In this document: positions 39,804-58,131 of the stretch, in pieces | Numbering within the stretch: position 1 is the stretch's first letter | How the letters are laid out: every line of letters begins with the position of its first letter | Notes under the pieces: generated by a model | Databases searched by the model: none | Told to the model about the DNA's origin: nothing | Seen by the model: only the letters and a program-made list of their open reading frames with translations | NCBI RefSeq assembly: GCF_003207815.1 | Contig: NZ_NKTX01000013.1 | Span: forward strand, 1-64,000 | DNA from: Komagataeibacter oboediens | GTDB lineage: Bacteria > Pseudomonadota > Alphaproteobacteria > Acetobacterales > Acetobacteraceae | Reading direction: 5' to 3' | Length of the DNA: 64,000 bases | Program-made: the position numbers and the translations under genes

Positions 39804-40226
39804 GGCAAGCTCCGGTACGAACAGAAGGAAGGGGCAGCGTATTCAATTTCATATGAACAGGGCTGTGGATATGACAGATATTCCATAGAAGCCTTCCGTC
39901 CGGTCTTTATGTGCAAAATGAAAGACCGGCCCTCCCGGGAGTATAGAAATATATATCAAATATTCTATGGTTATTGAGTGGTATTTTTCTGTTGTATGTA
40001 TTTTAGTATAAACAGACATGCATTGAATATGTCTCGTTCATAAGCGCTGTTTATAATCTTATGTATGATCTGTCTTGGACGTCCTGCTTCTGATTGATCT
40101 ATTCCATCTTCCAGGACACCGCAGCATGCATCCGTCTTTCAGGACGGAACATCGTTGACGGAACCACTATGCCGGGAAGCTATTTATGAATTCCAAGTCT
40201 TCCGGCATGAGTTTTGGAAAGTATCG
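39804..40226. other. Intergenic region upstream of cioAB
   Basis: About 420 bp that should carry the cioAB promoter. The middle (39945-40070) is AT-rich. I see no complete FNR/ANR box and no clear hairpin. Confidence 0.4.
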
Positions 40227-41660: not shown

Positions 41661-41663
41661 GGC

Positions 41664-42683
41664 ATGATGGATTTCGCATACTGGCTCCCCATCGTGTGGG
41701 CCGTCATTCTGGTGGCCGCCATTTCGATCTATGTCGTTCTTGACGGCTTTGATCTTGGCATCGGGATGCTGTTTGCATTCGAACGCCATCCGGACCGTCG
41801 GGACGTGATGGTCAACACCATCGCCCCCGTATGGGATGGGAACGAGACATGGATGGTACTGGGTGGGGCCGTGCTGTACGGTGTTTTTCCCGGCGCTTAC
41901 TCAACTTTGCTGCCCGCTTTCTACCTGCCGATCGTATTGATGCTGCTGGCGCTGATCTTTCGCGGCGTGGCGTTTGAATTCCGCGTCATGACACGCGGGA
42001 CAGGGCGCGAAGGCATGTGGAATGCAGGTTTCATGGCAGGCTCCGGCATTGCCGCCTTCTGCCAGGGCGCGATCCTGGGTGGAGTTGTGCAGGGGATCAG
42101 GGTTGTCGATGGGGCTTTTGCCGGTGGGCCGCTCGATTTTCTGACGCCGTTCAGCGTCCTGTGTGGTCTGGCGGTCATGTGCGGCTATGCCCTGCTGGGG
42201 GCGACGTGGCTGATCTGGCGCACCACCGGTGTGCTGGAGGCATCCTGCCGTCGCTGGGCCGCACGGCTGGCCGTGGGCCTGTTCCTCGGCATCGTGGCGG
42301 TCAGCCTGTGGACGCCGCTGCTGCATGCGCCTTACCTGCGGCGCTGGACCGATTGGCCGAACATCGTATTTGTCGCCCCGGTGCCGGTTCTGGTGGTCGT
42401 GCTGGGGGGCCTGTTTGTCATGGGGCTGCGCAGGGGACACTCAAAGGGGCCGTTCCTGTGTGCGCTGGGCTGGTTCTTTCTGTGCCTGTCCGGTCTCGGG
42501 ATCACGGTGTGGCCCTATGCCGTGCCGCCGGGGCTGACATTGTGGGATGTGTCTTCCCCGCCATCCAGTCAGTTTTTCCAGCTGGTCGGCACGGCCATCC
42601 TGCTGCCAATCATCCTGACCTACACGATCTATTCCTATCATGTCTTTCGCGGAAAGGTGACGGAAACCGATGGCTATCACTGA
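41664..42683 (+). CDS. cioB: Cyanide-insensitive-type quinol oxidase subunit II
   Basis: A 339-residue membrane subunit with about eight helices. DGFDLGIGMLFAFERHPDRRDVM, APVWDGNETWMVLGGAVLYGVFPGAY and LIFRGVAFEFRVM are the CioB/CydB hallmarks. It starts 3 bp after cioA. Its last 14 bp overlap a tiny downstream gene. Confidence 0.92.
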   Translation: MMDFAYWLPIVWAVILVAAISIYVVLDGFDLGIGMLFAFERHPDRRDVMVNTIAPVWDGNETWMVLGGAVLYGVFPGAYSTLLPAFYLPIVLMLLALIFRGVAFEFRVMTRGTGREGMWNAGFMAGSGIAAFCQGAILGGVVQGIRVVDGAFAGGPLDFLTPFSVLCGLAVMCGYALLGATWLIWRTTGVLEASCRRWAARLAVGLFLGIVAVSLWTPLLHAPYLRRWTDWPNIVFVAPVPVLVVVLGGLFVMGLRRGHSKGPFLCALGWFFLCLSGLGITVWPYAVPPGLTLWDVSSPPSSQFFQLVGTAILLPIILTYTIYSYHVFRGKVTETDGYH

Positions 42684-43151: not shown

Positions 43152-45599
43152 ATGTCGGGAATGGAAGGAAGGGCCCAACGTCATTTGTTCATATCACGGA
43201 CGAACTGCCTTATGCTTCGTTGCTATAGTACTTTTTTCATAACCGGAACGTCGGGAATGTTCCTGCTGGCCAGCACCGCGCTGGCTGCACCGGTAACATC
43301 CACGTCGCAGGATAAGACTGGCAGGCCTGTCGCCGTAAAGGCGGCGTCCCCCGCGACGTCCGTCGCAAAAAACCAGACCACCGGGACGCCTGCGGGCCAG
43401 GCATCGGGCACGGCTGCCCCCATCGCCGGGATACTGGATGGTTCAAACGGGGAAACAATTACCGTTCATGGCCACCATGCGGCGGATGGCACCAGCGCCA
43501 AATATATGAACAAGAACATCTATCTGGGGCCGCTGGGCAACCGCGATACGCTGGATACGCCCTATTCTGTCATGGGTGTGCCGCATGACGTCGTGGTCAA
43601 CCAGCAGCTGCGTAACATCAATGACATGGCGCAGTACCTGCCTTCAGTGCAGCTGGAAATCCGTGGTGATCCCAACACATCGCGCCCGCAGTCGCGCGGG
43701 TTCGAGGCCGATGTGGTGGCCAACTCTCGTCTTGATGGCCTGAACGTGGTCTCCACCACGCCCTATCCGGCGGAATGGGTTGATAACCTGCAGGTCCTCA
43801 ATGGTCTGGCCGGGGCGATGTACGGACCGGAAAACCCGTCTGGCGTGTTTGAATATACCCTCAAGCGTCCGACCAACCGCCGCACCGAGCGGCTTTCGGT
43901 TGGCGTGGATTCCATCGGCACGCCTACGGTCAATGGCGATATTTCTGGCCGGGTCGGTCGTAACGGCTGGTTTGGCTACCGCCTGAACATGCTGCATGCC
44001 AATGGTTCGGCCTATGCGCCGGGCAGCTGGATCCGGCGTGAGATGGTCAGCGCCGATTTCGATATCCATTTCGATTCCAAGACTGTCCTCGAACTTGATG
44101 CCAGCCACTATACCTATGATGAACGCGGCATGGCGCCCGGCTTTGGCATTGCCGCCGGCACAGCCGCCAATCCCACGGGCATTGGCGGGCAACTGCCCGA
44201 AGCGCCGGATCTGGGCAGACGTCTCGCCCCGGACTGGAGTGGGTACAACATGGAAACCAATACCTTCCTGGCCAAGATCAAGCACCAGATCAACAAGGAC
44301 TGGAGCTTCACGCTGGGCGGGCTGTACCAGGATGCCATGCGCCAGTCCTTCGGCATAAGCGATACGTTAAGTGCAACTCAGGGGTATGAGGGCTTTTACA
44401 GTTCAAAAGCCACGGCCACGACAACGGCAGATGACTTCCGCGTTGGCAGTAACATGGCGTATTTCAACGGCCGTGTTCATACCGGCCCCCTTACACATGA
44501 CCTGGTCATTGGCACCAATGGCTACATGATGGGGAATTACAACCCGACAACCGCGCTTACATCGGCGCAGAGTCTTGGTACATACAACATGTATGGTGCC
44601 GCCCCGACCAATGGCACGCAGCCCTATTATAGCGGGCGTTACAAATCCAGCAGCATCATGAGCCAGTCCTTCATTATTGGCGATACGATGCGGATCAACA
44701 AGCACTGGTCGGTCATGGGTACGCTTGCATGGAGCTGGATTGACCAGAAGGGTGCGCTCAATGCCACAAGTCCGCTCAAGAATACCTTTGAGGCCAATGC
44801 GACCTTCAGCCCGACGGCCAGCCTGATTTACAAGCCAACCCAGAACCAGACCCTGTATTTCACCTATGGCCGTTCTGCTGAAGCAGGGCCGGTTACGCCC
44901 AACAGCAAATATTATACCAATACCAATATTGCCCTGCCTGTTGCACATTCGGAAGAATATGAAGTCGGCTACAAGCTGCGATACCAGAAAATGCAGTTCA
45001 ACGTTGCCGGTTTCCGTATGACGTCACCTTATGCAATGTATATTCCCGCAGCGGACGGCTCCTGTTCGGGTGGCACGACCTGCCAGACTTATGAATATGG
45101 CGGCACACAGCGCAATTACGGTGTGGAAGCCCAGATTTCAGGTGAAGTCCTGCCCAATCTGTCGGTTCTGGCCGGCATGACGTGGCTGGATGCGGAACTG
45201 GTCAACAGCAAGACCGCTGCCTATAACAACAAGGAAATCGTGGGTGCGGCCCCGCTGCAGGCCAACCTGCTGCTGGATTACCGCCTGCCGGCGTCGCTGG
45301 GTTCCTTCGCTTCGGGCTGGGCCTTCAACGCCAGCGTCCATTACATGGGCAACCGTGCCGCCAACATTACCAACACGCTGCATACCGGTTCCTATACCAC
45401 GCTGGACCTTGGCACACGTTACGCCTTCCATGTTTCCAAATTCCCATGGGTTGCGCGTTTTGGTGTCAGCAATGCCACGAACGAGCGGTACTGGGCCTCG
45501 GTCTATACAGGTTCGCCCAGTGGCACATCCGGCGCCGCATCAACCCTGTATGCGGGGCTGCCGCGCGTCTATCATTTCACACTTTCGATGGAGTTCTGA
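43152..45599 (+). CDS. TonB-dependent siderophore-type receptor
   Basis: An 815-residue outer-membrane receptor. A signal peptide lies at about residues 21-46 (ending STALA-AP), so the true start may be ATG 43212 (residue 21) or 43161; none has a strong ribosome site. A low-complexity Ala/Thr/Gly stretch (47-95) precedes the plug domain (about 110-245), with TPYSVMGVP, SVQLEIRGDPNTSRPQSRGF and LNGLAGAMYGPENPSGVFEYTLKRP. The 22-strand barrel follows and ends in YHFTLSMEF, with the usual terminal Phe. Substrate is probably a ferric siderophore. It is followed by a terminator and appears monocistronic. Confidence 0.9.
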   Translation: MSGMEGRAQRHLFISRTNCLMLRCYSTFFITGTSGMFLLASTALAAPVTSTSQDKTGRPVAVKAASPATSVAKNQTTGTPAGQASGTAAPIAGILDGSNGETITVHGHHAADGTSAKYMNKNIYLGPLGNRDTLDTPYSVMGVPHDVVVNQQLRNINDMAQYLPSVQLEIRGDPNTSRPQSRGFEADVVANSRLDGLNVVSTTPYPAEWVDNLQVLNGLAGAMYGPENPSGVFEYTLKRPTNRRTERLSVGVDSIGTPTVNGDISGRVGRNGWFGYRLNMLHANGSAYAPGSWIRREMVSADFDIHFDSKTVLELDASHYTYDERGMAPGFGIAAGTAANPTGIGGQLPEAPDLGRRLAPDWSGYNMETNTFLAKIKHQINKDWSFTLGGLYQDAMRQSFGISDTLSATQGYEGFYSSKATATTTADDFRVGSNMAYFNGRVHTGPLTHDLVIGTNGYMMGNYNPTTALTSAQSLGTYNMYGAAPTNGTQPYYSGRYKSSSIMSQSFIIGDTMRINKHWSVMGTLAWSWIDQKGALNATSPLKNTFEANATFSPTASLIYKPTQNQTLYFTYGRSAEAGPVTPNSKYYTNTNIALPVAHSEEYEVGYKLRYQKMQFNVAGFRMTSPYAMYIPAADGSCSGGTTCQTYEYGGTQRNYGVEAQISGEVLPNLSVLAGMTWLDAELVNSKTAAYNNKEIVGAAPLQANLLLDYRLPASLGSFASGWAFNASVHYMGNRAANITNTLHTGSYTTLDLGTRYAFHVSKFPWVARFGVSNATNERYWASVYTGSPSGTSGAASTLYAGLPRVYHFTLSMEF

Positions 45600-45915: not shown

Positions 45916-46788
45916 TTAGGATGTAAATACAATCGTCTTGTGGCCGGTTATGATGGTACGGCGTTCAATATGGTACCTGACGGCACGGGCCAGAACGCGG
46001 CGTTCTATGTCACGTCCCTTGCGCACAAGGTCATCGGGCGTATCGGCATGGGAAATACGCTCGACATCCTGTTCAATGATCGGGCCTTCATCAAGATCGC
46101 TCGTCACATAATGCGCTGTTGCGCCGATCAGTTTGACCCCCCGGGCAAAGGCCTGATGATAGGGGCGCGCGCCCTTGAAACCGGGCAGAAATGAATGGTG
46201 GATATTGATGCAGCGCCCCGACAGCCGGTGCGACATGTCATTGGACAGGATCTGCATATATCGCGCCAGCACGACCAACTCGGCCCGGCTGTCGTCCATG
46301 ATCTGCAGGATCCGTGCTTCCTGCGCCGGTTTGGTGTCCGGTGTTATGGGCAGGTAATGAAAGGGAATACCACCAAAATCGAGGTTTTTATATACGTCAC
46401 GCGGGTGGTTTGAAATAATGCCGACCGGATCAATCGCCAGTTCCCCGATCCGCCAGCGATAGAGCAGGTCCACCAGGCAGTGATCAAAACGGGACACCAG
46501 TATGAGAACCCGCGGGCGCCGGGCCGTGGTGGTCAGGGACCATGTCATGTCGAATTCATGGGCCAGACGCATGAATTCCTCTTCCAGCACCGATCTGTCC
46601 GTTGTGCCATCCTGTATTTCAAAGACGACACGCATGAAGAACTGTCTGCTTTCCGTTTCGTCAAACTGCTGGGCTTCGGTAATATTTGCGCCCAGTTCAG
46701 CCAGACCATGGCTTATGCCCGCCACAATACCGGGACGGTTGGGGCATTTTATCGTAACGATATAGATTGTTTTGACACCCTCGGTCAT
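45916..46788 (-). CDS. purU: Formyltetrahydrofolate deformylase
   Basis: A 290-residue enzyme that hydrolyses 10-formyl-THF to formate and free THF. An N-terminal ACT domain ([29 protein letters not shown]) is followed by a formyltransferase-like domain. The latter has [79 protein letters not shown], with the catalytic Asn/His/Asp set. I start at 46788, which overlaps the soxG stop by an ATGA and has GGAAG seven bases upstream. It is the last gene of the sox operon and would regenerate THF from the C1 units the oxidase makes. Confidence 0.93.
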
Positions 46789-47390
46789 GGGCAAACTTCC
46801 GATACAGGTACGCCGCCACGCGCCGCGTGGCAAAGGTCGTGGTAAAGACTGTGAGCAAGACTGCGAAAAACGAACAGGTCGTATGTCGGCGTCATGTCAT
46901 GCTGTAAGATCTGGACAGGTATATGTCCCGCCAGCGTCAGGGCCGTGCTATCGGGGGCGAATGCACGGGGATGCAGGTCAATCGGGACAAGTTTTGACAA
47001 GATCGCGCGTGAATCCGGGCCGCGGACCCGTATGACGCTGCGTCCATCCCCCTGTGCCGTAATGGCCGCATGGGGCTGCGTTACCCGTCGCAGCCCGTCC
47101 AGGAGGTCAGCCTGCCCCTGCGGTGCACAGACCAGCCATTGGTCCGGTCCCGCCCAGATGAAACGCACGGCATCACGGCCATCACGGGCATGGGATGTCA
47201 CGGGTGCCTCCACGCCATATGCCGCCATCAGTGCGGTCTGGACGGCGGCATGGGACGCAGGGGAAAACTGCATGCTGGCAAGCTGCAGATCCGGCCCGGG
47301 GCCGATCGTGACGCGTGCGGCCTGTTCGCCCCCGGGCGGGATGAAGGGGGCTGACGGAATGGGTGACGTGGCGGCCAGTGTCTCAGGCAT
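46785..47390 (-). CDS. soxG: Sarcosine oxidase / N-methylglutamate dehydrogenase gamma subunit
   Basis: A 201-residue subunit of the GcvT-like fold. The start is ATG 47390 ([10 protein letters not shown]), 8 bp inside the soxA end; a longer open frame upstream is only the shadow of soxA. Recognisable blocks are [50 protein letters not shown] and [28 protein letters not shown]. The gamma subunit supports the heterotetramer of the folate-linked oxidase. It could be MgdD if the complex acts on N-methylglutamate. It overlaps purU by 4 bp. Confidence 0.88.
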
Positions 47391-50300
47391 GCAGGCGGTC
47401 TCCGGCAGGATCGAAGAAGGTGGGAGGGCAGACGACTGCGGCAACCTGGCTGTCGGCCAGCGGGTTATGGACCATGACCATCTCGCCATGACGGGCAGGA
47501 CCGCCAGACAGGAAGCCCAGTGCGATCCATCCATCCAGTGTCGGGGACCATGCGGCAGACGAGATCCATCCCTGATCATGCGCGCCCGTGGCCTCGGCGC
47601 CATGGGGCAGCAGGTGGCTGCCCGCGACCAGTTCATCGTGCGCATGAACCGGACGCAGGCCAACCAGCGTGGGGCGCACGGGGTCGGTCAGGGCAGGGCG
47701 GGCAGCCATGGCGCGGCCAATGAAGTCCTTTCGGGTGGACAGCATCCGCCCCATGTTCAGGTCATGCGCCGTTGTCTGGCCATTGAGTTCCGGTCCGGCG
47801 GGGTGACCCTTTTCAATGCGCATCACCCCCAGCGCTTCAGTGCCATAGGGCGCGATGCCGTACGGGGCGCCAACCTTCATGAGCAGCCGTGCCAGCGCAT
47901 CGCCATACCGTGCGGGAACCGCCAGTTCGTACGCAAGCTCCCCGGAGAAGGAAAGGCGGAACAGGCGCGCGGCCTGTCCGCCGCATATGGTGATTTCGGC
48001 AGCATGCATGTAACCGAAAGCGTCATTGGACAGGTCCGTATCCGGATCGACGACATGACGCAGCACATCGCGTGAGCGCGGGCCGGCAATGGCCATCTGC
48101 GCCCATTCATCGGTTACGGATATGAAGTGGACATCCAGTTCCGGCCACAGCCACTGGTGGCACAGTTCCATATGCTGCATGACCGCACCAGCATGTGCGG
48201 TGGTCGTGGTCATGACATAATGCTGTTCACCCAGTCGCGCCGTGGTGCCGTCATCAAAGGCAAAGCCGTCCTCCCGCAGCATCAGGCCGTAGCGGACCCG
48301 CCCCACGGGCAGTTTTTGCCATCCATTGATATACAGGCGGTCAAGGAAGGTAGCGGCGTCAGGACCCTGAATATCGATCTTGCCCAGTGTGGTGACATCA
48401 CAGAACCCGACGGCCGTACGGACGGTTCTCACCTCGCGGTTGACGGTATCGCGCCAGTGGGTTTCTCCGTCCTGCGGGAACCACTGTGCCCGGTGCCAGA
48501 TTCCATTGGCCGTAAATACGGCGCCCTGCTGGCGCGCCCATTCATGGGTGGGGGTCAGTCGGTCCGGCTTGAAATACCTGCCGCGATGCGCGCCCGCAAG
48601 CGCGCCGATGGCCACGGGCTGCACGGGCGGGCGGAACATGGTCGTGCCCGTCCGGGCAATGTCCTGACCGGTCTGCTGCGCCAGTGCAGCCAGACCATTG
48701 ATGTTGGATGTCTTGCCCTGATCTGTTGCCATACCCAGCGTGGTGTAGCGCTTGACATGTTCAACGCAGCGAAAGCCCTCCATCGCGGCCAGGCGCACGT
48801 CCTTTGCCGTGACGTCATTCTGGAAATCGATGAACGCCTTGCTATCTCTGCCTGCCTGATCCTGCAGCACGGGCTGGATGGCCTGAATGCCGTAGCTTTC
48901 CCGCGGTGCGGCCGGCAGGGGGGGCAGTTCGGTGTCAAAGCCACACGCGGCAGCGGCTTCCTGCCCGCGCGCAGCCCCTTCGTGCAGGCAGTCGGCAGTC
49001 ATGAAGGTGCCATTGGCCACGCCAGCCGCCAGCATGCCGGGCGGGAAAGACCCGGCTGTGAAAGCGCATAGTTCCGGGTCATAAACCGGTTTTGCGCCCA
49101 GATGTGTCGTCAGGCTCAGTTCCGGGTTCCAGCCGCCCGACATGGCGATCAGGTCGCAGGCCACATGCCTGACCCTGCCCGACCGGTCCCGTATGGCCGC
49201 AGTATGAACCCCGAGGCGGCCATAGGTATTGGAAATCGCGCCGCCAGTGAAAAGGCGCGCACCAGTGTCATGGGCGACCTGCTGTGCCATATCGCTGGCC
49301 TGCGTGCGCGTATCCACAATGGCGGTGACCGCCGCACCGGCATGCTTCAGGTCCACGGCCGTGCGCAGGCCATCGTCATTATTGGTGAAGACGATGGCGC
49401 GCTGTCCCGCCACGACGCCGAAACGGTTGATATAGGTGCGCACGGCCCCGGCAAGCATGATGCCCGGACGGTCGTTGTTGGGAAAGACCAGGGGACGTTC
49501 GATCCCGCCGCCTGCAACAATGCAGCGACGGGCGACAATGCGCCACAGACGCTGGCGGGGCTGGTCAGAGGCAGGACAGGACACATGATCCGCCACACGT
49601 TCCAGCGCGCCATAGGTGCCGCCATCATATGTCCCGAAAACGCAGGTGCGCGTCATTATGCGCACCTCGGGCATCTGACGCAGGGCGGCCACGGTCCGGT
49701 CCGCCCACTGCCAGCCGGGAACGCCATCAATATCGGTCCGCTCCGCCCGCAGGCGTCCACCTGTCACGCTGTCCTGTTCACACAGGATGACCCGCGCGCC
49801 CGAACGTCCCGCCACCAGGGCCGCGGCAAGCCCCGCCGGGCCACTACCCACCACCAGCACATCACAGAACGTGGTGGTTTTTTCATACAGGTCGGGATCC
49901 GCCTCGTCCGCTGCCCGGCCGAGGCCCGCGGCACGGCGGATGAGGGGTTCATATACCTTTTCCCAGAACGCGGCAGGCCACATGAAAGTCTTGTAGTAGA
50001 ACCCGGCCGTAAACAGGGGGGAAAACAGCCCGTTAACGCCAAGTGCGTCCATGCGGAGGGATGGCCAGCGGTTCTGGCTGCATGCGTCCAGCCCGTCGAA
50101 CACTTCGGTGACAGTCGCGCGGCTGTTGGGTTCGCGCCATGCGCCCGTGCGCAGTTCCAACAGGGCGTTGGGTTCTTCCGGGCCGGCCGTCAGGATGCCG
50201 CGCGGGCGGTGATACTTGAACGAACGCCCTGCAAGATGCTGCCCATTGGCCAGCAGGGCCGACGCCAGCGTATCACCCGGATGTGCGTCATAGCTTATCC

Positions 50301-50415
50301 CGTCAAAGGTAAAACGGATGATCGTATCCGGATCGATCCCGTTGGCGGGGATACGACGTCCGGCCTGTCCCGACAGGCGGTGGGAGCAGGCATCTTTCTT
50401 CCACGGCAGTTTCAT
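47383..50415 (-). CDS. soxA: Sarcosine oxidase / N-methylglutamate dehydrogenase alpha subunit
   Basis: A 1010-residue, multi-domain subunit. The N-terminal 2Fe-2S-ferredoxin-like domain (FDGISYDAHPGDTLASALLANG) is followed by an NAD-binding Rossmann domain (VVGSGPAGLAAALVAGRSG, near 190). The C-terminal half is a GcvT-like tetrahydrofolate-binding domain (about 600-1000, with GPRSRDVLR and FSGELAYELAVPA). The length is normal for heterotetrameric sarcosine oxidase. The folate domain captures the methyl group as methylene-THF. MgdC of N-methylglutamate dehydrogenase is homologous. It overlaps soxD by 4 bp and soxG by 8 bp. Confidence 0.92.
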   Translation of the reverse strand: MKLPWKKDACSHRLSGQAGRRIPANGIDPDTIIRFTFDGISYDAHPGDTLASALLANGQHLAGRSFKYHRPRGILTAGPEEPNALLELRTGAWREPNSRATVTEVFDGLDACSQNRWPSLRMDALGVNGLFSPLFTAGFYYKTFMWPAAFWEKVYEPLIRRAAGLGRAADEADPDLYEKTTTFCDVLVVGSGPAGLAAALVAGRSGARVILCEQDSVTGGRLRAERTDIDGVPGWQWADRTVAALRQMPEVRIMTRTCVFGTYDGGTYGALERVADHVSCPASDQPRQRLWRIVARRCIVAGGGIERPLVFPNNDRPGIMLAGAVRTYINRFGVVAGQRAIVFTNNDDGLRTAVDLKHAGAAVTAIVDTRTQASDMAQQVAHDTGARLFTGGAISNTYGRLGVHTAAIRDRSGRVRHVACDLIAMSGGWNPELSLTTHLGAKPVYDPELCAFTAGSFPPGMLAAGVANGTFMTADCLHEGAARGQEAAAACGFDTELPPLPAAPRESYGIQAIQPVLQDQAGRDSKAFIDFQNDVTAKDVRLAAMEGFRCVEHVKRYTTLGMATDQGKTSNINGLAALAQQTGQDIARTGTTMFRPPVQPVAIGALAGAHRGRYFKPDRLTPTHEWARQQGAVFTANGIWHRAQWFPQDGETHWRDTVNREVRTVRTAVGFCDVTTLGKIDIQGPDAATFLDRLYINGWQKLPVGRVRYGLMLREDGFAFDDGTTARLGEQHYVMTTTTAHAGAVMQHMELCHQWLWPELDVHFISVTDEWAQMAIAGPRSRDVLRHVVDPDTDLSNDAFGYMHAAEITICGGQAARLFRLSFSGELAYELAVPARYGDALARLLMKVGAPYGIAPYGTEALGVMRIEKGHPAGPELNGQTTAHDLNMGRMLSTRKDFIGRAMAARPALTDPVRPTLVGLRPVHAHDELVAGSHLLPHGAEATGAHDQGWISSAAWSPTLDGWIALGFLSGGPARHGEMVMVHNPLADSQVAAVVCPPTFFDPAGDRLHA

Positions 50416-50696
50416 GATCCGGCGTTTTCCCTGGCCTGGCGTGCGACATCCACCGCGCGGACGACATCGGCAATTTCATGAGTGCGCATGTTGCGCGTCA
50501 CGACCAGCCATGCATGGCAGCCCGCGCCATGGTACCACAGTTCCCGGTGCCATCCGTCGGGATTGTCACGCAGGTAGACATAATCCACCCAGGCATGCGC
50601 CGGTGCATCCATACCGGGACGGTGCACCGTGGCATCCCCCCGATAGGTGAATTCTTCAATGCCGCGTGGCCCGCAGCAGGGACAGTTCAGACGCAT
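50412..50696 (-). CDS. soxD: Sarcosine oxidase / N-methylglutamate dehydrogenase delta subunit
   Basis: A 94-residue zinc-binding subunit with CPCCGPRGIEEF at the N-terminus and WYHGAGCHAWLVVTRNMRTHEI further on. The Cys/His ligands of the SoxD family are visible. It starts 7 bp after soxB and overlaps soxA by 4 bp. MgdB is the equivalent in the N-methylglutamate complex. Confidence 0.9.
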   Translation of the reverse strand: MRLNCPCCGPRGIEEFTYRGDATVHRPGMDAPAHAWVDYVYLRDNPDGWHRELWYHGAGCHAWLVVTRNMRTHEIADVVRAVDVARQARENAGS

Positions 50697-50703
50697 TGGA
50701 ACC

Positions 50704-51963
50704 TCAGTGCAGATTGGGCTGTGCGCCCATGCCTTTTTCGTCGATCACGGCCCCACGGCCAAAGCGGTCCAGACGGTATGCGGTCGCGACCGGATGGGGT
50801 TCGTTACGTGCGATCAGGTGCGCGAAACACAGGCCTGATGCAGGTGTCGCCTTGAACCCGCCATAACACCATCCGGCGTTGAGATAGAGGTTGTCCACCG
50901 GTGTCCTGTCGATGATGGGGCTGCCATCCATGCTCATGTCCATAAGGCCGGCCCAGTGACGCAGCAGCCGGACACGGCCGATCCGGGGCATGAGCGCCAT
51001 GCCGCCTTCGCACACATCCTCGATGACCGGCATGTTCCCACGCTGGGCATATGAATTATAGCCGTCGATATCGCCACCAAACACCAGGCCGCCCTTGTCG
51101 GACTGGCTGATATAGAAATGACCCGCGCCAAACGTCACCACGCAGTCGATGAATGGTTTCAGCCCTTCACTGACGAAGGCCTGCAGCACATGGCTTTCAA
51201 TCGGCAGGCGCAGACCCGCCATGGCCGCGACCCGCGACGAATTGCCCGCACATGACAGTCCCACGTGCCCCGCGCCAATGAACCCGCGCGTGGTTTCCAC
51301 CCCGACCGCCCGGCCCGCATGCATGCGGATGCCGGTGACCTCGCAGTTCTGGATGATATCCACGCCCAGCCGGTCGGCTGCACGGGCGAACCCCCACGCC
51401 ACGGCGTCATGCCGCACCGTGCCGCCGCGTTTTTGCAGCAGGCCGCCCAGTATGGGGAAACGGGCCGCGTCGTAATTCAGGAACGGCAGCTTCTGGCGTA
51501 CCGCTTCCGTATCCAGCAACTGCGCATCCACCCCGTGCAGCCGCATGGCGTTGCCCCGGCGGGTGTAGGCGTTGCGCTGGGCATCGTTATGGAACAGGTT
51601 GAGCACGCCGCGCTGGCTGACCATGGCGTTGTAATTGATGTCCTGCTCCAGCCCTTCCCATAATTTCATGGAACATTCGTAGAAGGGGATATTGCCCGAC
51701 AGCAGGTAGTTCGAACGGATGATGGTCGTGTTGCGGCCGATATTTCCGTTGCCGATCCAGCCCTTCTCCACAACCGCCACGCGGTGGATGCCGTACCGCC
51801 GGGCAAGGTAATAGGCAGTGGCCAGACCATGGCCGCCGCCACCCACGATCACGACGTCATAAGCGGGCTGTGGCTGTGCGTTCCGCCATACGGGGCGCCA
51901 GCCCGTCTGCCCGCGCAGAGCTTCCCTCAGAAGGGTAAAAATGGAATAATGATTGCTTTTCAT
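50704..51963 (-). CDS. soxB: Sarcosine oxidase / N-methylglutamate dehydrogenase beta subunit
   Basis: A 419-residue flavoprotein amine oxidase (DAO fold), the catalytic subunit. It has the FAD motif DVVIVGGGGHGLATAYYLARRYG near residue 35, EKGWIGNGNIGRNTTIIRSNY, and the C-terminal RTPVDNLYLNAGWCYGGFKATPASG. In the family this subunit carries covalent FMN and oxidises N-methyl amino acids. It is the first gene of the leftward operon and is divergent from a LysR gene 82 bp away. Confidence 0.93.
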   Translation of the reverse strand: MKSNHYSIFTLLREALRGQTGWRPVWRNAQPQPAYDVVIVGGGGHGLATAYYLARRYGIHRVAVVEKGWIGNGNIGRNTTIIRSNYLLSGNIPFYECSMKLWEGLEQDINYNAMVSQRGVLNLFHNDAQRNAYTRRGNAMRLHGVDAQLLDTEAVRQKLPFLNYDAARFPILGGLLQKRGGTVRHDAVAWGFARAADRLGVDIIQNCEVTGIRMHAGRAVGVETTRGFIGAGHVGLSCAGNSSRVAAMAGLRLPIESHVLQAFVSEGLKPFIDCVVTFGAGHFYISQSDKGGLVFGGDIDGYNSYAQRGNMPVIEDVCEGGMALMPRIGRVRLLRHWAGLMDMSMDGSPIIDRTPVDNLYLNAGWCYGGFKATPASGLCFAHLIARNEPHPVATAYRLDRFGRGAVIDEKGMGAQPNLH

Positions 51964-52008
51964 TACGAAATCTTCGCTCTGCCACCGTAGTCCATGCTAA
52001 CGGCTTTC

Positions 52009-52024
52009 ATAATGGAGACATTAT
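52009..52024. promoter_or_regulatory. Inverted repeat between soxB and the divergent lysR gene
   Basis: ATAATG-GAGA-CATTAT, a perfect 6+4+6 palindrome in the 82-bp divergent gap. Its T/A-flanked form fits LysR-type boxes. It lies 22 bp before the lysR start and about 45 bp before soxB. Confidence 0.5.
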
Positions 52025-52045
52025 AAATTTTTCTTATGGTATGGG

Positions 52046-53017
52046 ATGATGTCATTGAACGCTCCCCCGTTTGACCTGTCCGCGCTGAACGTCTTCCTTG
52101 CCGTATGCGACAACGGCAGCATGGCGGCGGCGGGACGTATGCTGGGCATAACCCAGCCCGCCGTGTCACAGACGATAGCCGAGCTGGAAAAGCGCGTGGG
52201 AACGCAACTGTTTGACCGTGGAGTGCGCCCCATGGTGCTGACGGCGGCGGGCACGGTGCTGCGCCAGTATGCGGCCGGGCTGATGGTCGAGATGCGGCAG
52301 ATCGTCGGACGCCTGCATGAAATGCGCTCCGGCCGGGTCGATCTGCTGCGTATCGGCATAGTCGATTCCCTGTCGCGTGCCGTAATGGGCGACGTATCGC
52401 ATTTCATGCGCGACCGCGTGGACCGGCTGGTGGTGCATGCCGGCCTGACCGAGTCCCATGTCACTGCCCTGCTGACCCGGCAGATCGATTTTGTCCTCAG
52501 TGTCGATAATCTGGAAGATGTCGCTGATCTGGAACGCTGGCCGCTGTTCGAGGAACCATACATGCTGCTGTGCCCCGCCGGGCTGCAGCCACCTTCACGG
52601 CTGCCAGACCTGCCGGGATTTTTCGCAGCCCATCCTTTCGTGCGGTTTTCCCTGCGTTCACGCACGGGCATGGAGGTGGAACGATACCTGCGGCGACTGA
52701 ACCTGGACATTCCCTATGGCCAGGAATTTGACCGTCCGGAGGGGGTGCTGGCCGCGTGCAGGCTGGGGGGTGTCGCCATTACCACGCCGCTATGCATGTA
52801 CGAGGCTGGCTTCGACGGTAGTGACGGGCTGGTATGTCACGCACTGCCGGCCGGCATGCTGCGCCGCAGGCTGACGCTGGTGGCGCGGCGGCGTGAATTC
52901 GGGCGCCTGCCGCTGGAGTTTGCCAGATCGCTCCGGGCTGTCCTCACGGACCGGACGCTGGGTGAACTGACCGCCCGTTTTCCTGCCTTTGCCGAGCAGA
53001 TGGACGTCCTGTCCTGA
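52046..53017 (+). CDS. LysR-family regulator divergent from soxBDAG-purU
   Basis: A 323-residue regulator. The helix-turn-helix is LNVFLAVCDNGSMAAAGRMLGITQPAVSQTIAELEKRVG (about 12-55), followed by the LysR substrate-binding domain. It has the classical divergent position relative to soxB, so it probably activates that operon. The first two codons are both ATG; either may be used. It is followed 25 bp later by the XRE-cupin gene on the same strand. Confidence 0.87.
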   Translation: MMSLNAPPFDLSALNVFLAVCDNGSMAAAGRMLGITQPAVSQTIAELEKRVGTQLFDRGVRPMVLTAAGTVLRQYAAGLMVEMRQIVGRLHEMRSGRVDLLRIGIVDSLSRAVMGDVSHFMRDRVDRLVVHAGLTESHVTALLTRQIDFVLSVDNLEDVADLERWPLFEEPYMLLCPAGLQPPSRLPDLPGFFAAHPFVRFSLRSRTGMEVERYLRRLNLDIPYGQEFDRPEGVLAACRLGGVAITTPLCMYEAGFDGSDGLVCHALPAGMLRRRLTLVARRREFGRLPLEFARSLRAVLTDRTLGELTARFPAFAEQMDVLS

Positions 53018-53042
53018 TTTTTGCCTTTCCGGGAGAAGAGAC

Positions 53043-53696
53043 ATGAGTACCGTGCGCAAGCCCCGTTCTGAAAAAAAGACCACCGAACTGATTACCGGCT
53101 CATCCGCCGGTCCGGTCCGTGAACTGACGCTTGAAGAGTCGCTGGGCGCGCAGATCCGCCATCTGCGGCGAAAAGGCGAACTGACTGGCGCTGATCTGGC
53201 CAGTGGCGCGGGCATATCGCTGGGTATGCTGTCGAAAATAGAAAACGGGCAGATTTCGCCCTCATTATCCACCCTGCAGTCCGTATGCCGTGCGCTGAAT
53301 GTGCCGCTCAGCCAGTTGTTCGCTACGTTTGAGGAGCAGCGTGACTGTTCCTTCGTCAAGGCGGGACAGGGTGTTGTCATTGAACGCCGGGGTACGAAAG
53401 CCGGACATGAATACCAGTTGCTGGGACATCTGCTGGATGGCACCCTGGTGGTCGAACCCTACCTGATCACCCTGCATGAAGATGCAAAGCCGTATACCAG
53501 TTTTCGCCATCAGGGGGTGGAAATCATCTACATGCTTAGTGGTCGCGTGTTATACCGTCATGGTAACGAGTCATACGAGATGGGGGCGGGGGACACATTG
53601 ATGTTCGATTGCCAGGCCCCGCACGGGCCGGAGCTATTGATAGAGAAACCAATGAATTATCTGTCGATTATTGTATATATGCGACAGGACGATTAA
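53043..53696 (+). CDS. XRE-family regulator with C-terminal cupin domain
   Basis: A 217-residue protein. The helix-turn-helix is LGAQIRHLRRKGELTGADLASGAGISLGMLSKIENGQISPSLSTLQ, around residue 35-80. A cupin_2 sensor domain is at about 140-210 (SFRHQGVEIIYMLSGRVLYRHGNESYEMGAGDTLMFD). Such proteins commonly control amino-acid, polyamine or amine catabolism. The start at 53043 has a GGGAGAAGAG ribosome site. It lies directly before the mgs operon and is likely to regulate it. Confidence 0.87.
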   Translation: MSTVRKPRSEKKTTELITGSSAGPVRELTLEESLGAQIRHLRRKGELTGADLASGAGISLGMLSKIENGQISPSLSTLQSVCRALNVPLSQLFATFEEQRDCSFVKAGQGVVIERRGTKAGHEYQLLGHLLDGTLVVEPYLITLHEDAKPYTSFRHQGVEIIYMLSGRVLYRHGNESYEMGAGDTLMFDCQAPHGPELLIEKPMNYLSIIVYMRQDD

Positions 53697-53702
53697 CCGG
53701 AG

Positions 53703-53763
53703 TTTCTCTTAAAGAAAGTTTTGTTCTTTTGCGTTGACAGGGTGGGGAGATGGGGGCTTTATG
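53703..53763 (+). promoter_or_regulatory. Probable mgs operon promoter with overlapping inverted repeats
   Basis: TTGACA (53734-53739) is followed after 18 bp by TTTATG (53758-53763). Just upstream are two overlapping inverted repeats: TTTCT-N5-AGAAA (53703-53717) and AAAGAA-N7-TTCTTT (53711-53729). The placement right before -35 suits an activator site, with the XRE-cupin protein as candidate. Confidence 0.5.
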
Positions 53764-53798
53764 GTCACATCTTTTCCTCTTTCGGCGGAGAAATGACG

Positions 53799-54698
53799 AT
53801 GTGTGGCATCGTTGGGTTGTTTTTGAAAAATCCCGATCTTCAACCTGAACTGGGGCTTCTGACATCCCAGATGCTGAAGGTCATGACGGAGCGCGGGCCC
53901 GACAGCGCAGGTTTTGCCGTCTATGGCGGCGCACGGCACGGGCAGACCAAGATTACGGTGCGTGGCGTCGCCCCCGCGCAGACCGCACTCTTTGAAAAAG
54001 GGCTGGCGGGTATTGCCGGTCCCGAAATGTCCGTGACCTGCCGCAATGACCATACGGTCATTACTCTGCCGACCGAACATGAACAGACCGTGCGCCGGTT
54101 CATCGACGCATTCGGCCACGGGGTTGCATTCGTTTCCAGCGGTGACAGCATCGAACTGTATAAAGGCGTCGGGTTGCCGGAAGATGTTGCAGCCCGCTTC
54201 GACCTTGCGGGCATGCGTGGCACCCACGCCATCGGGCATACCCGCATGGCGACGGAATCCGCCGTAACGACGGCTGGCGCGCACCCGTTTTCGACTGGCC
54301 CGGACCAGTGTCTTGTGCATAACGGATCACTGTCGAACCATAATACCCTGCGCCGCCAGCTGGTACGTGAAGGACTGAAATTCGCCACCGAGAATGACTC
54401 GGAAGTTGCCGCGGGCTATCTGTCGTGGCGTCTGTCACGCGGTGAACGGCTGGATGAGGCGCTGACAGCCTCCCTTGCGGACCTTGACGGTTTCTACACC
54501 TTCGTCGTCGGCACGCGTGACGGGTTCGCGGTCCTGCGCGACCCGGTGGCATGCAAGCCCGCCGTCATTGCGGAAACGGATGACTATGTTGCGTTTGCTT
54601 CCGAATACCGGGCATTTGCCCGGCTGCCGGGCATCGGGCAGGCAACCGTTTTTGAACCTGAGCCACAGCGCGTCTATCACTGGGAACATGCGGCATGA
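53799..54698 (+). CDS. mgsA: N-methylglutamate synthase subunit A / GlxB-like glutamine amidotransferase
   Basis: A 299-residue class II (Ntn) glutamine amidotransferase domain. The start decides function: ATG 53799 puts Cys at position 2 (MCGIVGLF), the N-terminal nucleophile after Met removal. A GGAG lies eight bases before it and is too close to the ATG at 53793. Other motifs are TERGPDSAGFAVYG, GTHAIGHTRMATES, HNGSLSNHN and NDSEVAAGYL. It corresponds to the glutaminase domain of GltB as a separate protein. In methylamine users MgsA moves the methylamine group from gamma-glutamylmethylamide. It overlaps mgsB by 4 bp. Confidence 0.88.
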   Translation: MCGIVGLFLKNPDLQPELGLLTSQMLKVMTERGPDSAGFAVYGGARHGQTKITVRGVAPAQTALFEKGLAGIAGPEMSVTCRNDHTVITLPTEHEQTVRRFIDAFGHGVAFVSSGDSIELYKGVGLPEDVAARFDLAGMRGTHAIGHTRMATESAVTTAGAHPFSTGPDQCLVHNGSLSNHNTLRRQLVREGLKFATENDSEVAAGYLSWRLSRGERLDEALTASLADLDGFYTFVVGTRDGFAVLRDPVACKPAVIAETDDYVAFASEYRAFARLPGIGQATVFEPEPQRVYHWEHAA

Positions 54699-55381
54699 GT
54701 AACATGCAGGAAATCGATCTGGCCCGATGCACGCTCCGTGAAGCCAACAGCCAGCTACAGGGCGAGGATGCGACAGGTGCATGGGTCATTCGCAATCCGC
54801 AGGGTCGGCACGCCCTGGCCGTTGGCCTGAACGCGCCGATTGACGTCATGATTGACGGGCAGGCCGGATATTATGCAGGCGGTATGAACAAGCATGCCAA
54901 TATCACCATTGAAGGCAATGCCGGCCCCGGCGTTGCTGAAAACATGATGAGTGGCAGCACCCGCGTGCGCGGCAATGCCAGCATGGCAGCCGGTGCCACG
55001 GGACACGGCGGGCTGCTGGTGATCGATGGGGATGCCGGGGCGCGCTGCGGCATATCGATGAAGGGCATCGAAATCGTGGTGCGCGGTTCGGTCGGGCATA
55101 TGAGTGCCTTCATGGCGCAGTCCGGCACGCTGGTCGTTTGTGGGGACGCGGGCGAAGCACTGGGGGACAGCCTGTACGAAGCGAAGATTTTCGTGCGTGG
55201 CGAAGTCAGAAGCCTGGGTGCGGACTGCGAGGAAAAGGACATGACGGCTGACGACCTGGCCTGCCTGCAGTCCCTGCTGGACCGCGCAGGTGTGACCGAA
55301 TATCCGGCAGACAGCTTCCGTCTCTATGGATCCGCGCGCCGCCTGTACCATTTCCATGTTGATAACGCCGCGGCGTACTGA
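54695..55381 (+). CDS. mgsB: N-methylglutamate synthase subunit B / GlxC-like (GXGXG domain)
   Basis: A 228-residue protein made mostly of a right-handed beta-helix, the GXGXG domain of glutamate synthase alpha subunits. Repeats such as NITIEGNAGPGVAENM, TRVRGNASMAAGATGHGGLLVIDGDAGARCGIS and GTLVVCGDAGEALGDSLYEAKIFVRG are clear. It gives the structural scaffold between the amidotransferase and FMN subunits. It overlaps mgsA by 4 bp and mgsC starts 7 bp later. Confidence 0.88.
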   Translation: MSNMQEIDLARCTLREANSQLQGEDATGAWVIRNPQGRHALAVGLNAPIDVMIDGQAGYYAGGMNKHANITIEGNAGPGVAENMMSGSTRVRGNASMAAGATGHGGLLVIDGDAGARCGISMKGIEIVVRGSVGHMSAFMAQSGTLVVCGDAGEALGDSLYEAKIFVRGEVRSLGADCEEKDMTADDLACLQSLLDRAGVTEYPADSFRLYGSARRLYHFHVDNAAAY

Positions 55382-55388
55382 GGCCATC

Positions 55389-56726
55389 ATGACAGACAAT
55401 ACAAAGAAGATCCCGCGAACGAAGCCGCGTTTTTCCGCAACATTCGATCCCTTCACCATTTCCGAAATCCAGCGCGCCGCTGCCACCGGGATTTATGACA
55501 TCCGCGGTGCTGGCACCAAGCGCAAGCTGCCCCATTTCGATGACCTGCTGTTCCTTGGGGCGTCCATTTCCCGCTATCCGCTGGAAGGTTACCGTGAACG
55601 CTGTGACACGGATGTCGTGCTGGGCACGCGGTTCGCGAAAAAACCCATTCACCTCAAGACGCCGGTGACCATTGCGGGCATGTCCTTCGGTGCGCTGTCC
55701 GCGCAAGCCAAGGAGGCGCTGGGACGCGGGGCCAGCGCTGTCGGGACCTCCACGACCACAGGTGACGGCGGCATGACGCCGGAGGAGCGGGGACATTCCT
55801 CGACCCTTGTCTACCAGTACCTGCCTTCGCGCTATGGCATGAACCCTGATGACCTGCGTCGTGCGGACGCGATTGAAGTGGTGGTGGGACAGGGCGCAAA
55901 GCCTGGCGGTGGCGGCATGCTGCTGGGGCAGAAGATTTCCAGCCGTGTAGCCAGGATGCGCGACCTGCCCGAAGGCATCGACCAGCGTTCCGCCTGCCGC
56001 CACCCGGACTGGACGGGGCCGGACGATCTTGAAATCAAGATCGAGGAACTGCGGGAAATTACGGCGTGGGAAAAGCCCATCTATATCAAGGTGGGGGCAA
56101 GCCGTCCCTATTACGACGTGTCGCTGGCGGTAAAGGCCGGGGCGGATGTCGTGGTCCTCGACGGGATGCAGGGCGGCACGGCGGCAACGCAGGAAGTCTT
56201 TATTGAACATGTCGGCCTGCCCATTCTCTCGGCCATTCGCCCCGCAGTGCAGGCGCTGCAGGATCTGGGCATGCACCGCAAGGTACAGCTGATCGTGTCC
56301 GGTGGCATCCGCAGCGGCGCGGACATGGCCAAGGCCCTGGCGCTGGGTGCGGATGCGGTGGCTATTGGCACTGCCGCCCTGATCGCACTGGGTGACCAGA
56401 GTCCGGAGCTGGCGGAAGAATACGCCCGGCTGGGTACGGTTCCCGGCGCGTATGACGACTGGCAGGACGGACGCGACCCCGCCGGTATCACCACGCAGGA
56501 CCCGGAACTGGCCGCACGCCTTGATCCCATTATGGGGGGGCGGCGGATTGCCAATTACCTGTCTGTCATGACGATGGAAGCGCAGGCGATTGCCCGTGCA
56601 TGCGGAAAGAGCCACCTGCACAATCTTGAACCTGAAGACCTTGTCGCCCTGACGATGGAAGCGGCTGCCATGACCCGCATCCCGCTGGCCGGGACGGAAT
56701 GGTACCCGGGTAAGCAGGGCTTCTGA
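55389..56726 (+). CDS. mgsC: N-methylglutamate synthase subunit C / GlxD-like (FMN glutamate synthase domain)
   Basis: A 445-residue FMN-binding subunit of the glutamate synthase central fold. Visible elements are TPVTIAGMSFGALSAQAKEALGRGA, TGDGGMTPEERG, QGAKPGGGGMLLG, KVGASRPYYDVSLAVKAGADVVVLDGMQGGTAAT and VSGGIRSGADMAKALALGADAVAIG, the FMN/TIM-barrel signature. ATG 55389 is chosen over an earlier frame that runs inside mgsB. In the methylamine pathway it forms N-methylglutamate from 2-oxoglutarate and gamma-glutamylmethylamide; in other bacteria the homologue GlxD has no fixed role. Confidence 0.88.
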   Translation: MTDNTKKIPRTKPRFSATFDPFTISEIQRAAATGIYDIRGAGTKRKLPHFDDLLFLGASISRYPLEGYRERCDTDVVLGTRFAKKPIHLKTPVTIAGMSFGALSAQAKEALGRGASAVGTSTTTGDGGMTPEERGHSSTLVYQYLPSRYGMNPDDLRRADAIEVVVGQGAKPGGGGMLLGQKISSRVARMRDLPEGIDQRSACRHPDWTGPDDLEIKIEELREITAWEKPIYIKVGASRPYYDVSLAVKAGADVVVLDGMQGGTAATQEVFIEHVGLPILSAIRPAVQALQDLGMHRKVQLIVSGGIRSGADMAKALALGADAVAIGTAALIALGDQSPELAEEYARLGTVPGAYDDWQDGRDPAGITTQDPELAARLDPIMGGRRIANYLSVMTMEAQAIARACGKSHLHNLEPEDLVALTMEAAAMTRIPLAGTEWYPGKQGF

Positions 56727-56802
56727 AAACATGGCGGGGCACCTTTGCACAGGTGCTTCCTTTTCGGGTTTCTCGACGATACTGAACACGGATATCCTGC
56801 TT

Positions 56803-58131
56803 ATGGTTCAAGATACTATCCCGCAGCGGCCGCCTGTCGATCTTGCAGCCGTAGCTGAAGAGCGGGGAATAAAATACTTTCTCATTTCCTATACCGACCT
56901 GTCGGGTGCACAGCGGGCGAAACTGGTGCCGGCTGTTGCCATAAGGGACATGCAGAAGAACGGGGCCGGATTTGCGGGGTTTGCGGCTGCGTTCCAGCTT
57001 TCCCCTGCTGATCCCGATCTGGTTGCTGTGCCCGACCCCACGACACTGATCCAGCTTCCATGGAAGCCTGAAGTCGGCTGGCTGGCATCCGACCTGAAAA
57101 TGCATGGGCAGTGGATCGAGCAGGGGCCACGCAACACATTACGCCGGATGATCGACCGGGCGGCGCAGGCCGGACTGACGGTCAAGACCGGGGTGGAGTG
57201 CGAATTCTTCCTGCTGACACCGGATGGGCAGACCATTGGTGACGCGCACGATAATGCTGCCAAATCATGTTATGATGCATCGGCATTGATGCGGCAGTAT
57301 GATGTGATTACCGAAATATGCGACGCGATGCTGGAACTGGGCTGGCAGCCCTACCAGAACGACCATGAGGACGCAAATGGCCAGTTCGAAATGAACTGGA
57401 TATTTGATGAGGCCATGGTCACCGCAGACCGCCATGTATTTTTCAAATTCATGACACGATCCATTGCCGAGAAGCATGGATTGCGGGCGACATTCATGCC
57501 CAAACCCTTCGTCAACCTGACGGGCAGCGGCTGTCATGCGCATATCTCGCTGTGGAACAACGGCAGGAATGTCTGTCATGCGGACGGCGATCCGCTCGGG
57601 CTGTCCGCGCAGGGGTATCATTTTGTCGGTGGCCTGATCGAAAATGCGGATGCGCTGTGCGCCTTCCTCAATCCCGTGGTGAATTCCTACAAGCGCATCA
57701 ATGCGCCACGGACTGTTTCGGGCGCTACATGGTCCCCCAATTCCGTTACGTATGCCGGGGATAACCGGACCCACATGATCCGTGTGCCGGGCAAGGGACG
57801 TTTTGAAATGCGGCTGCCCGATGGTGCGGCCAATCCTTACCTGCTGCAGGCTTCGCTGCTGGCGGCCGGGCTGGATGGGCTGGAACGCAGACTGGATCCG
57901 GGCAAGCCGCTGGACATCAACATGTACACGGATGGCCATACGGTTCCGGATGCCAAGAAACTGCCCCTGAACCTGCTGGATGCCGTACGTGCGCTGGACG
58001 CGTCCACAGCAATGCGCCGACTGCTGGGTGATGGGCTGGTCGGTCCGTATATCAACCTGAAAATGGAGGAATGGAATGCCTATTGTGGGCATCTGTCCAC
58101 ATGGGAACGGCAGGCGACGCTTGACTGCTGA
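56803..58131 (+). CDS. Type III glutamine synthetase GlnT / gamma-glutamylmethylamide synthetase
   Basis: A 442-residue ATP-dependent ligase of the glutamine synthetase family. ATG 56803 starts MVQDTIPQRPP; the next 110 residues are the beta-grasp domain (KYFLISYTDLSGAQRAKLVP). The catalytic domain has GVECEFFLL, YQNDHEDANGQFEMNW, GSGCHAHISLW and the Arg of RFEMRLPDGAANPYL. The length matches both GlnT and GMAS (about 440); the two cannot be told apart by motif. Location after mgsABC favours the methylamide synthetase role, making gamma-glutamylmethylamide from glutamate, ATP and methylamine. It is followed by a strong terminator. Confidence 0.82.
   Translation: MVQDTIPQRPPVDLAAVAEERGIKYFLISYTDLSGAQRAKLVPAVAIRDMQKNGAGFAGFAAAFQLSPADPDLVAVPDPTTLIQLPWKPEVGWLASDLKMHGQWIEQGPRNTLRRMIDRAAQAGLTVKTGVECEFFLLTPDGQTIGDAHDNAAKSCYDASALMRQYDVITEICDAMLELGWQPYQNDHEDANGQFEMNWIFDEAMVTADRHVFFKFMTRSIAEKHGLRATFMPKPFVNLTGSGCHAHISLWNNGRNVCHADGDPLGLSAQGYHFVGGLIENADALCAFLNPVVNSYKRINAPRTVSGATWSPNSVTYAGDNRTHMIRVPGKGRFEMRLPDGAANPYLLQASLLAAGLDGLERRLDPGKPLDINMYTDGHTVPDAKKLPLNLLDAVRALDASTAMRRLLGDGLVGPYINLKMEEWNAYCGHLSTWERQATLDC

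Follow-up and report, generated by a model that had tools for sequence, protein, structure and literature searches.

Do the sarcosine-oxidase-like genes (soxBDAG) and the mgsABC-glnT genes that share a 12-kb cluster in Komagataeibacter oboediens serve one function or two? The cluster lies at positions 45916-58131 of a 64,000-nucleotide stretch of contig NZ_NKTX01000013.1 (hereafter the window). We consider it highly probable that it is a complete N-methylglutamate (NMG) pathway. The first-pass annotation of this DNA had read it as one function, the demethylation of an amine to glutamate and a folate-bound one-carbon (C1) unit, and that reading is supported here by SoxB trees, by 61% identity of the ligase to a solved gamma-glutamylmethylamide synthetase (GmaS) and by seven out of seven methylamine-site residues.

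The cluster has two divergent arms, purU-soxGADB on the minus strand and mgsABC-gmaS on the plus strand, with LysR and XRE-cupin regulators between them. Each gene of the first-pass annotation is an open frame where it had been placed, and the modules it had claimed to lie within 12 kb (GmaS, MgsABC and four Sox-like subunits) were all found. For soxG, XRE-cupin, mgsA and gmaS, which lie in longer frames, we picked the start. The eleven genes are:

45916-46788, minus: purU, formyltetrahydrofolate deformylase (folate-bound C1 to formate); NCBIfam PurU 336 bits, above cut-off
46785-47390, minus: mgdD (soxG-like), N-methylglutamate dehydrogenase gamma subunit; TIGR01375 88.5 bits, cut-off 144, and operon position
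47383-50415, minus: mgdC (soxA-like), alpha subunit with a flavin/nicotinamide adenine dinucleotide (FAD/NAD) part and a GcvT-like folate domain; TIGR01372 1360 bits
50412-50696, minus: mgdB (soxD-like), delta subunit with putative zinc ligands; TIGR01374 98 bits, cut-off 116.5
50704-51963, minus: mgdA (soxB-like), catalytic beta subunit with loop GWCYGGFK; TIGR01373 697 bits, trees and near-fixed differences
52046-53017, plus: LysR-type regulator, divergent from mgdA
53043-53696, plus: XRE-cupin regulator; Pfam HTH_3 and Cupin_2
53799-54698, plus: mgsA (glxB), class II amidotransferase-like subunit with N-terminal Cys nucleophile; amidotransferase models, below cut-off
54695-55381, plus: mgsB (glxC), GXGXG subunit; formylmethanofuran dehydrogenase subunit C models, below cut-off
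55386-56726, plus: mgsC (glxD), glutamate-synthase-like subunit binding flavin mononucleotide (FMN); glutamate synthase large subunit 8.9e-38, below cut-off
56803-58131, plus: gmaS (glnT in annotations elsewhere), gamma-glutamylmethylamide synthetase; type III glutamate-ammonia ligase 640 bits, above cut-off

The NCBIfam family cut-offs were passed by the PurU, soxA, soxB and type III glutamate-ammonia ligase models. MgsA, MgsB and MgsC match related models alone (amidotransferases, GXGXG proteins and glutamate synthase), each below cut-off.

The pathway is already known, and the host group and a point on MgsC are the additions. Among the literature matches listed, no paper is on an NMG route in Komagataeibacter or acetic acid bacteria, judged by title or abstract opening. 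The cluster would give Komagataeibacter and Acetobacter, better known for vinegar and cellulose, a full route from methylamine to glutamate.

The ligase and the Sox-like complex

The top solved relative of the ligase is PDB 7cql, the GmaS of Rhodovulum sp. 12E13 (RhGmaS), at 608 bits, followed by the glutamate-methylamine ligase 9qur (328 bits) and glutamine synthetases at 225 bits or less. Identity to RhGmaS extends over 262 of 428 residues (61%). PMC7948447, the source of the list of methylamine-site residues, gives RhGmaS a Km of 27 uM with methylamine and of 8.7 mM with ammonium. The window keeps every one of the seven (K30, Y147, Q175, D177, E179, E186 and N188), and they are invariant in 105/105 rows of a 109-row alignment, these being the window protein and sequences more than 55% identical to it, with repeat fetches counted and K30 taken as K30'. 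The GlnA of the same genome differs at five of these positions (K30, Y147, Q175, D177 and N188) in what is an alignment of distant proteins, and the window ligase does not carry the amine-site residues of ammonia-specific, GlnA-type glutamine synthetases. Of the 21 ligand and catalytic residues listed for RhGmaS, 20 are the same here; the difference is Tyr191, which is Phe in the window and likewise in 41 of the 105 rows. The genome holds one match above the cut-off for this ligase family. By identity and by its full methylamine pocket, the protein looks like GmaS.

For SoxB, identity to the window protein falls into groups of 73-90%, 50-55% and 44-47%, with small oxidoreductases at 25-27%. 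Our first tree had 75 rows, taken from 108 matches plus the window protein and two PDB chains. Left out were matches below 40% identity or 80% coverage, presumed repeat fetches and 15 rows, mostly of Mesorhizobium; the tree also lost the SoxB row of L081 (genome G084), whose gene is missing from the supposed refetch L106, and, through coverage, a match of the sarcosine oxidase (SOX) type at the gmaS locus L152. The window protein belongs to a 42-row clade whose support is 99 by the Shimodaira-Hasegawa-like approximate likelihood ratio test (SH-aLRT). For 36 of these rows gmaS lies within the stretch itself; of the other six, three are from genomes that have gmaS at another place. Both PDB sarcosine oxidases fall in another clade of 31 rows (support 87) together with 29 Acetobacteraceae SoxB without gmaS in the stretch, a label that is weak for rows from L073-L102, where stretches are a few kb long. 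Two divergent gmaS-linked rows stand outside both clades. The Methylorubrum thiocyanatum SoxB belongs to the window's clade, at 77% identity.

GmaS-linked SoxB of further genomes were added for a second tree, of 58 rows. There the clade of the window numbers 33 rows (support 99) and that of the sarcosine oxidases 16 (support 92), and eight rows from gmaS loci, five of the same class and three of other classes, form a deeper clade of their own (support 100); one row at 62% identity is sister to the window's clade. Both trees came from a short search with SH-aLRT support only, and SoxB alone was treed among the Sox-like subunits. In both, the window protein stands apart from the solved sarcosine oxidases and outside the SOX clade, and the sarcosine oxidase reading was dropped. 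The first-pass annotation had held that trees grouping SoxBDAG firmly with sarcosine oxidases and the ligase with ammonia-specific GlnT, together with no induction by methylamine, would overturn its proposal; run for SoxB, trees instead group the window with GmaS-linked SoxB. The deeper clade of eight gives no support to one shared origin for the GmaS-linked SoxB as a whole, and because it stands separately, the contrast of SoxB with MgdA does not come down to a single split.

The same division is seen in residues. Comparing 62 window-clade rows with 36 SOX rows (repeat fetches counted; conservation thresholds of at least 95% and at least 90%), we found 28 alignment columns with near-fixed differences, nine of them without exception. 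Among the nine are Gly354-Thr355 of 2gag_B, which become Cys-Tyr, so that the loop GWGTGGFK reads GWCYGGFK; its glycine and lysine presumably contact the substrate in sarcosine oxidases. The deeper clade of eight has GWGT(W/Y)GFK, with the aromatic residue shifted one place on. A second SOX loop, SNxxHxYxSQ, becomes (F/Y)G(A/S)GHFYxSQ: heterotetrameric sarcosine oxidase (PDB 2gag, 1vrq), which has its four subunits in common with the window, shows SNHIHVYVSQ where the window has FGAGHFYISQ. The loop GWCYGGFK, fixed in its clade, could serve as a quick genome marker separating this clade from sarcosine oxidase.

Other residues are kept throughout. The His aligned with 2gag_B His173, which we take to be the FMN-binding His, is present in 62/62 window-clade and 36/36 SOX rows. 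In SoxD, C5, C8 and C60 are each Cys in 55 of 59 rows and H56 is found in all 59 (both clades, repeat fetches counted); we assume these four to be zinc ligands. The histidine and the putative zinc ligands are common to both families and are therefore undiagnostic.

Conservation of the layout and the proposed route

The neighbourhood was compared at the best 80 of at least 506 confirmed gmaS matches, metagenome bins among them. The genes mgsABC lie within the stretch at 73 of these loci, a SoxB of more than 70% identity at 47 (35 on the same strand, 12 on the opposite one), an XRE-cupin relative at 55 and a purU relative at 10. For Acetobacteraceae, 16 of 22 stretches have mgsABC and 6 have a SoxB above 70%, and several stretches end at contig ends. 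Three GmaS-positive stretches (L046, L047 and L048) have no match to other cluster genes, and the ligase of L044 is just 39% identical.

Komagataeibacter saccharivorans has the entire cluster, with soxB 90%, mgsC 96% and gmaS 87-88% identical to the window. A further soxBDA set occurs there as well, its SoxB 51% identical and its soxG not picked up by the search; the two paralogues coexist in this genome. Acetobacter thailandicus and A. estunensis show the same layout including the LysR gene, and A. estunensis has a second gmaS cluster. Since the layout is kept in K. saccharivorans and these two Acetobacter species, and mgsABC in 73 of the best 80 loci, it is not due to chance. The cluster as a whole suggests that the glnT and sarcosine oxidase family labels mislead in Komagataeibacter and Acetobacter.

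Within the family, GmaS is above cut-off in 23 out of 200 genomes, and soxA is above cut-off in 82 and at E<=1e-200 in 91. At the latter level, soxA of either clade is present in 21 of the 23 GmaS genomes versus 70 of the 177 others (lists compared by hand).

In L057/L123, L124 and L126 soxB and the LysR gene are likewise divergent, and so they are, with a LysR of 48-52% identity, in L113, L122 and L137; no gmaS lies in the loci L113 and L122. This suggests control of the mgd arm by LysR and of the mgs-gmaS arm by XRE-cupin.

The gene set and the divergent layout are those of the NMG pathway of Methylobacterium and Methylorubrum. M. extorquens DM4 is described with mgsABC-gmaS and an adjacent, divergent mgdABCD in PMC6237917, and our comparison covers this layout and the M. 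thiocyanatum SoxB. What differs here is that LysR and XRE-cupin stand between the arms, that purU closes the mgd arm and that the genome has no Fae. PMC13390433 describes a route in R. pomeroyi by GmaS, Mgs and Mgd to ammonium and methylene-folate, and PMC3160333 relates an earlier proposal of glxBCD-glnT and soxBDAG as NMG enzymes in SAR11.

On plasmid pRlX2 of R. johnstonii, soxA-D-B is divergent from genes for a GlxA-type regulator and XRE, glxBCD, glnT and purU, after which follow genes of the aminomethyltransferase family, the DmmA family (dimethylamine monooxygenase subunit), a PDR/VanB oxidoreductase and DUF3445. The divergent arms and the XRE-cupin gene are as in the window (gmaS 63%, mgsC 84%, soxB 76% identical); the plasmid differs in having a GlxA-type regulator for LysR, purU on the gmaS arm, and the DmmA-family gene and its neighbours downstream. 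We take the DmmA-family, PDR/VanB and DUF3445 genes to be DmmABC. The product of dimethylamine monooxygenase is methylamine, which would be the substrate of the rhizobial set. Because the layout is the same and a DmmA-family gene follows, the rhizobial glx-glnT set looks like the same pathway. The first-pass annotation had named the rhizobial glxBCD-glnT set, of unclear role, as an alternative for the window; the likeness holds, but for the same two reasons it hardly counts as a separate alternative and was set aside.

From the gene set, SoxB ancestry, residue conservation and synteny observed here, we infer the substrate, the reaction order, the folate hand-over and the regulation. GmaS would join methylamine to glutamate at the expense of adenosine triphosphate, giving gamma-glutamylmethylamide, from which MgsA would free methylamine again. 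MgsC, with MgsB as a scaffold, would put it on C2 of the glutamate skeleton, the overall products being NMG and ammonia; MgsABC may also accept methylamine directly. MgdABCD would then oxidise NMG to glutamate and pass the methyl carbon to tetrahydrofolate, and PurU, with a putative folate dehydrogenase/cyclohydrolase, would return the C1 unit as formate. The net result would be ammonium and a folate C1 unit from methylamine, with glutamate recycled.

A number of observations weigh against this pathway. Within the Sox-like complex, soxD and soxG score under their family cut-offs, the SOX clade has a support of just 87-92 with 2gag_B on a long branch, and for 5 of the 28 positions the letter typical of the window's clade is found in 2gag_B too. 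The gmaS locus L152 has a SOX-type set nearby in addition to the MgdA type. An mgsC of more than 60% identity is missing in 6 of the 22 Acetobacteraceae stretches and 4 of the best 80 loci, some of them cut by contig ends. At least three genomes (G064, G092 and G194) hold the window's MgdA clade and no GmaS above cut-off, so that the MgdA clade alone is not proof of a methylamine route. The dimethylamine monooxygenase alpha subunit (PF11927) had no match in the genome. Ethylamine is also a substrate of RhGmaS, with a Km of 58 uM (PMC7948447). Lastly, PMC6237917 quotes Gruffaz et al. 2014 for GmaS being essential in DM4 for methylamine as a carbon source and not as a nitrogen source, and reports that P. 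putida with mgsABC alone formed NMG, at a level 2.5 times lower than when gmaS was present. Because of these two results, GmaS is perhaps not an obligatory first step, and it may be dispensable at high methylamine.

As for the fate of the carbon, Fae was not found in the genome, and no formate dehydrogenase there is above cut-off (best match 528 bits versus 666, also near nitrate reductases). A role in supplying nitrogen therefore looks likelier in this genome than growth on methylamine carbon.

Three other explanations of the cluster were weighed. The one that survives best, and which we regard as improbable, is that MgdABCD works on N-methylglutamate, or some other N-alkyl glutamate, taken up from outside, methylamine use being secondary. 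The genomes with the MgdA clade and no GmaS above cut-off speak for it, as do the three MgdA neighbours at L120 (described below); on the other side, GmaS and MgsABC are present in the window, the block is kept in K. saccharivorans and two Acetobacter species, and no transporter is among the eleven genes. We give very little credence to SoxBDAG being an ordinary sarcosine oxidase feeding PurU, with mgsABC-glnT as an unrelated neighbour: all four subunits carry NCBIfam sarcosine oxidase labels, and the one soxA above cut-off in the genome belongs to this set, which would thus be the enzyme if sarcosine were used, but the position of SoxB in the trees, its 28 near-fixed differences from the SOX clade and its recurrence beside gmaS at 47 of the best 80 loci stand against it. 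The other sizeable GcvT-domain match of the soxA search is a 444-residue frame only, with no dimethylglycine-dehydrogenase-like protein there. Least credible of all is a ligase and mgsABC working mainly on another small amine, ethylamine for example, or on ammonia when nitrogen is plentiful, in keeping with the GlnT label: RhGmaS does take ethylamine and, weakly, ammonium (PMC7948447), but linkage to a folate-domain Sox-like complex and PurU fits a methyl group, a DmmA-family gene follows the set in R. johnstonii, and the pocket residues are of the GmaS and not the GlnA type.

Three loci (L119, L120 and L121) come from genomes that lack a GmaS above cut-off and encode an MgdA belonging to the window's clade. 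Around the one at L120 lie genes for a small SoxB-like oxidoreductase, a peptide-type ABC substrate-binding protein and a GbdR-like regulator, and a small SoxA-like protein lies near the MgdA of L119. These MgdA are perhaps for imported N-alkyl amino acids.

The MgsC subunit and the cofactor of NMG synthase

The N-terminal Cys nucleophile of MgsA is present in 96/96 rows. The GltB of the same genome has the motif GCIMVRQCHSNTCPVG, whose three cysteines we take to be the [3Fe-4S] ligands of glutamate synthase. In the window MgsC, D337, W359 and D364 align with these cysteines, and it thus lacks the three cysteines characteristic of the FMN domain of glutamate synthase (GltS). In the first MgsC set, Cys occupies all three places in 4 of 97 rows; with 60 further loci, 143 of 159 rows are without the motif and 16 have it (window repeats counted). 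A single Cys is found in three rows, as CYD twice and DFC once.

A FastTree of 131 rows, thinned and with the cysteine columns left out, puts 114 motif-less rows on one side of a single branch (91), and GltB with 16 others on the opposite side, with a long-branch warning among the motif-bearing rows. Rooted on GltB, the tree reads as one loss of the cysteine motif.

A GltD-like gene beside MgsC, searched with the genome's own GltD by tblastn, occurred at 0/100 places without the motif and 1/20 with it (L050, divergent); counts are per place and include repeat fetches and weak MgsC-like matches. There is thus no sign of a dedicated reductase accompanying the motif-bearing sets.

In PMC6237917, the redox cofactor of NMG synthase is called unknown, the proposal relayed is a reductive methylamination of 2-oxoglutarate, and Pollock and Hersh are cited for the formation of NMG from glutamate and methylamine. 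The relayed proposal therefore counts against a redox-neutral reading of MgsC. The loss of the cysteine ligands fits a reaction closed on FMN, from glutamate and methylamine to NMG and ammonia, without being proof of it.

We give about even chances to two forms of NMG synthase. In the form found here, MgsC would have lost its Fe-S cluster once, by replacing the cysteines in place (mostly with D, W, D), and would need no external reductant: FMN would take a hydride from glutamate, with loss of ammonia, and return it to the methyl-imine, a redox-neutral amine exchange. The deeper, Cys-bearing MgsC may remain reductive. Among the matches listed, no literature links N-methylglutamate synthase with iron-sulfur. 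The missing cysteines make the question of the redox cofactor open to direct experiment.

We also observed a second, diverged mgsABC-like set near the normal one in L144 (14.2-18 kb), L274 (9.9-14.5 kb) and L279 (1.6-6 kb). Its MgsC is 50-52% and its MgsA about 34% identical, and its ligase is 27-29% identical to GmaS; the diverged MgsC of L144 retains the cysteine motif. In the class search, MgsC-like proteins of 49-57% identity make up 30 of the places listed.

Flanking genes and a plasmid-borne ligase

Upstream, a two-gene cytochrome bd oxidase lies at 40155-42683 of the window, and the frame at 43152-45599, directly ahead of purU, has by eye the look of a TonB-dependent receptor.

Downstream, a separate set adjoins gmaS, from 58242 to the end of the window at 64000 and on to base 67256 of the contig (L007). 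It comprises a lactonase-like metallo-hydrolase, a TRZ/ATZ-like amidohydrolase and a secretory-lipase-like hydrolase, together with a PcaR-like IclR regulator, a Rieske oxygenase, a 2Fe-2S ferredoxin, a ferredoxin reductase and a second glutamine-synthetase-like ligase (224 bits, family cut-off 470). The Rieske-ligase-ferredoxin-reductase core recurs on plasmids of Methylobacterium nodulans and Polaromonas, where no mgs genes are annotated in the stretch around it. We considered a possible tie of the Rieske and ligase genes to homarine or NMG, for which the literature search found nothing.

Finally, a lone gmaS-type ligase, 58% identical, was found at 8989-10299 of L072, a plasmid stretch of Nostoc sp. 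UHCC 0302. The stretch has no mgs or sox match, transposases lie within a few kb, and the gene is perhaps a transfer into a cyanobacterium.

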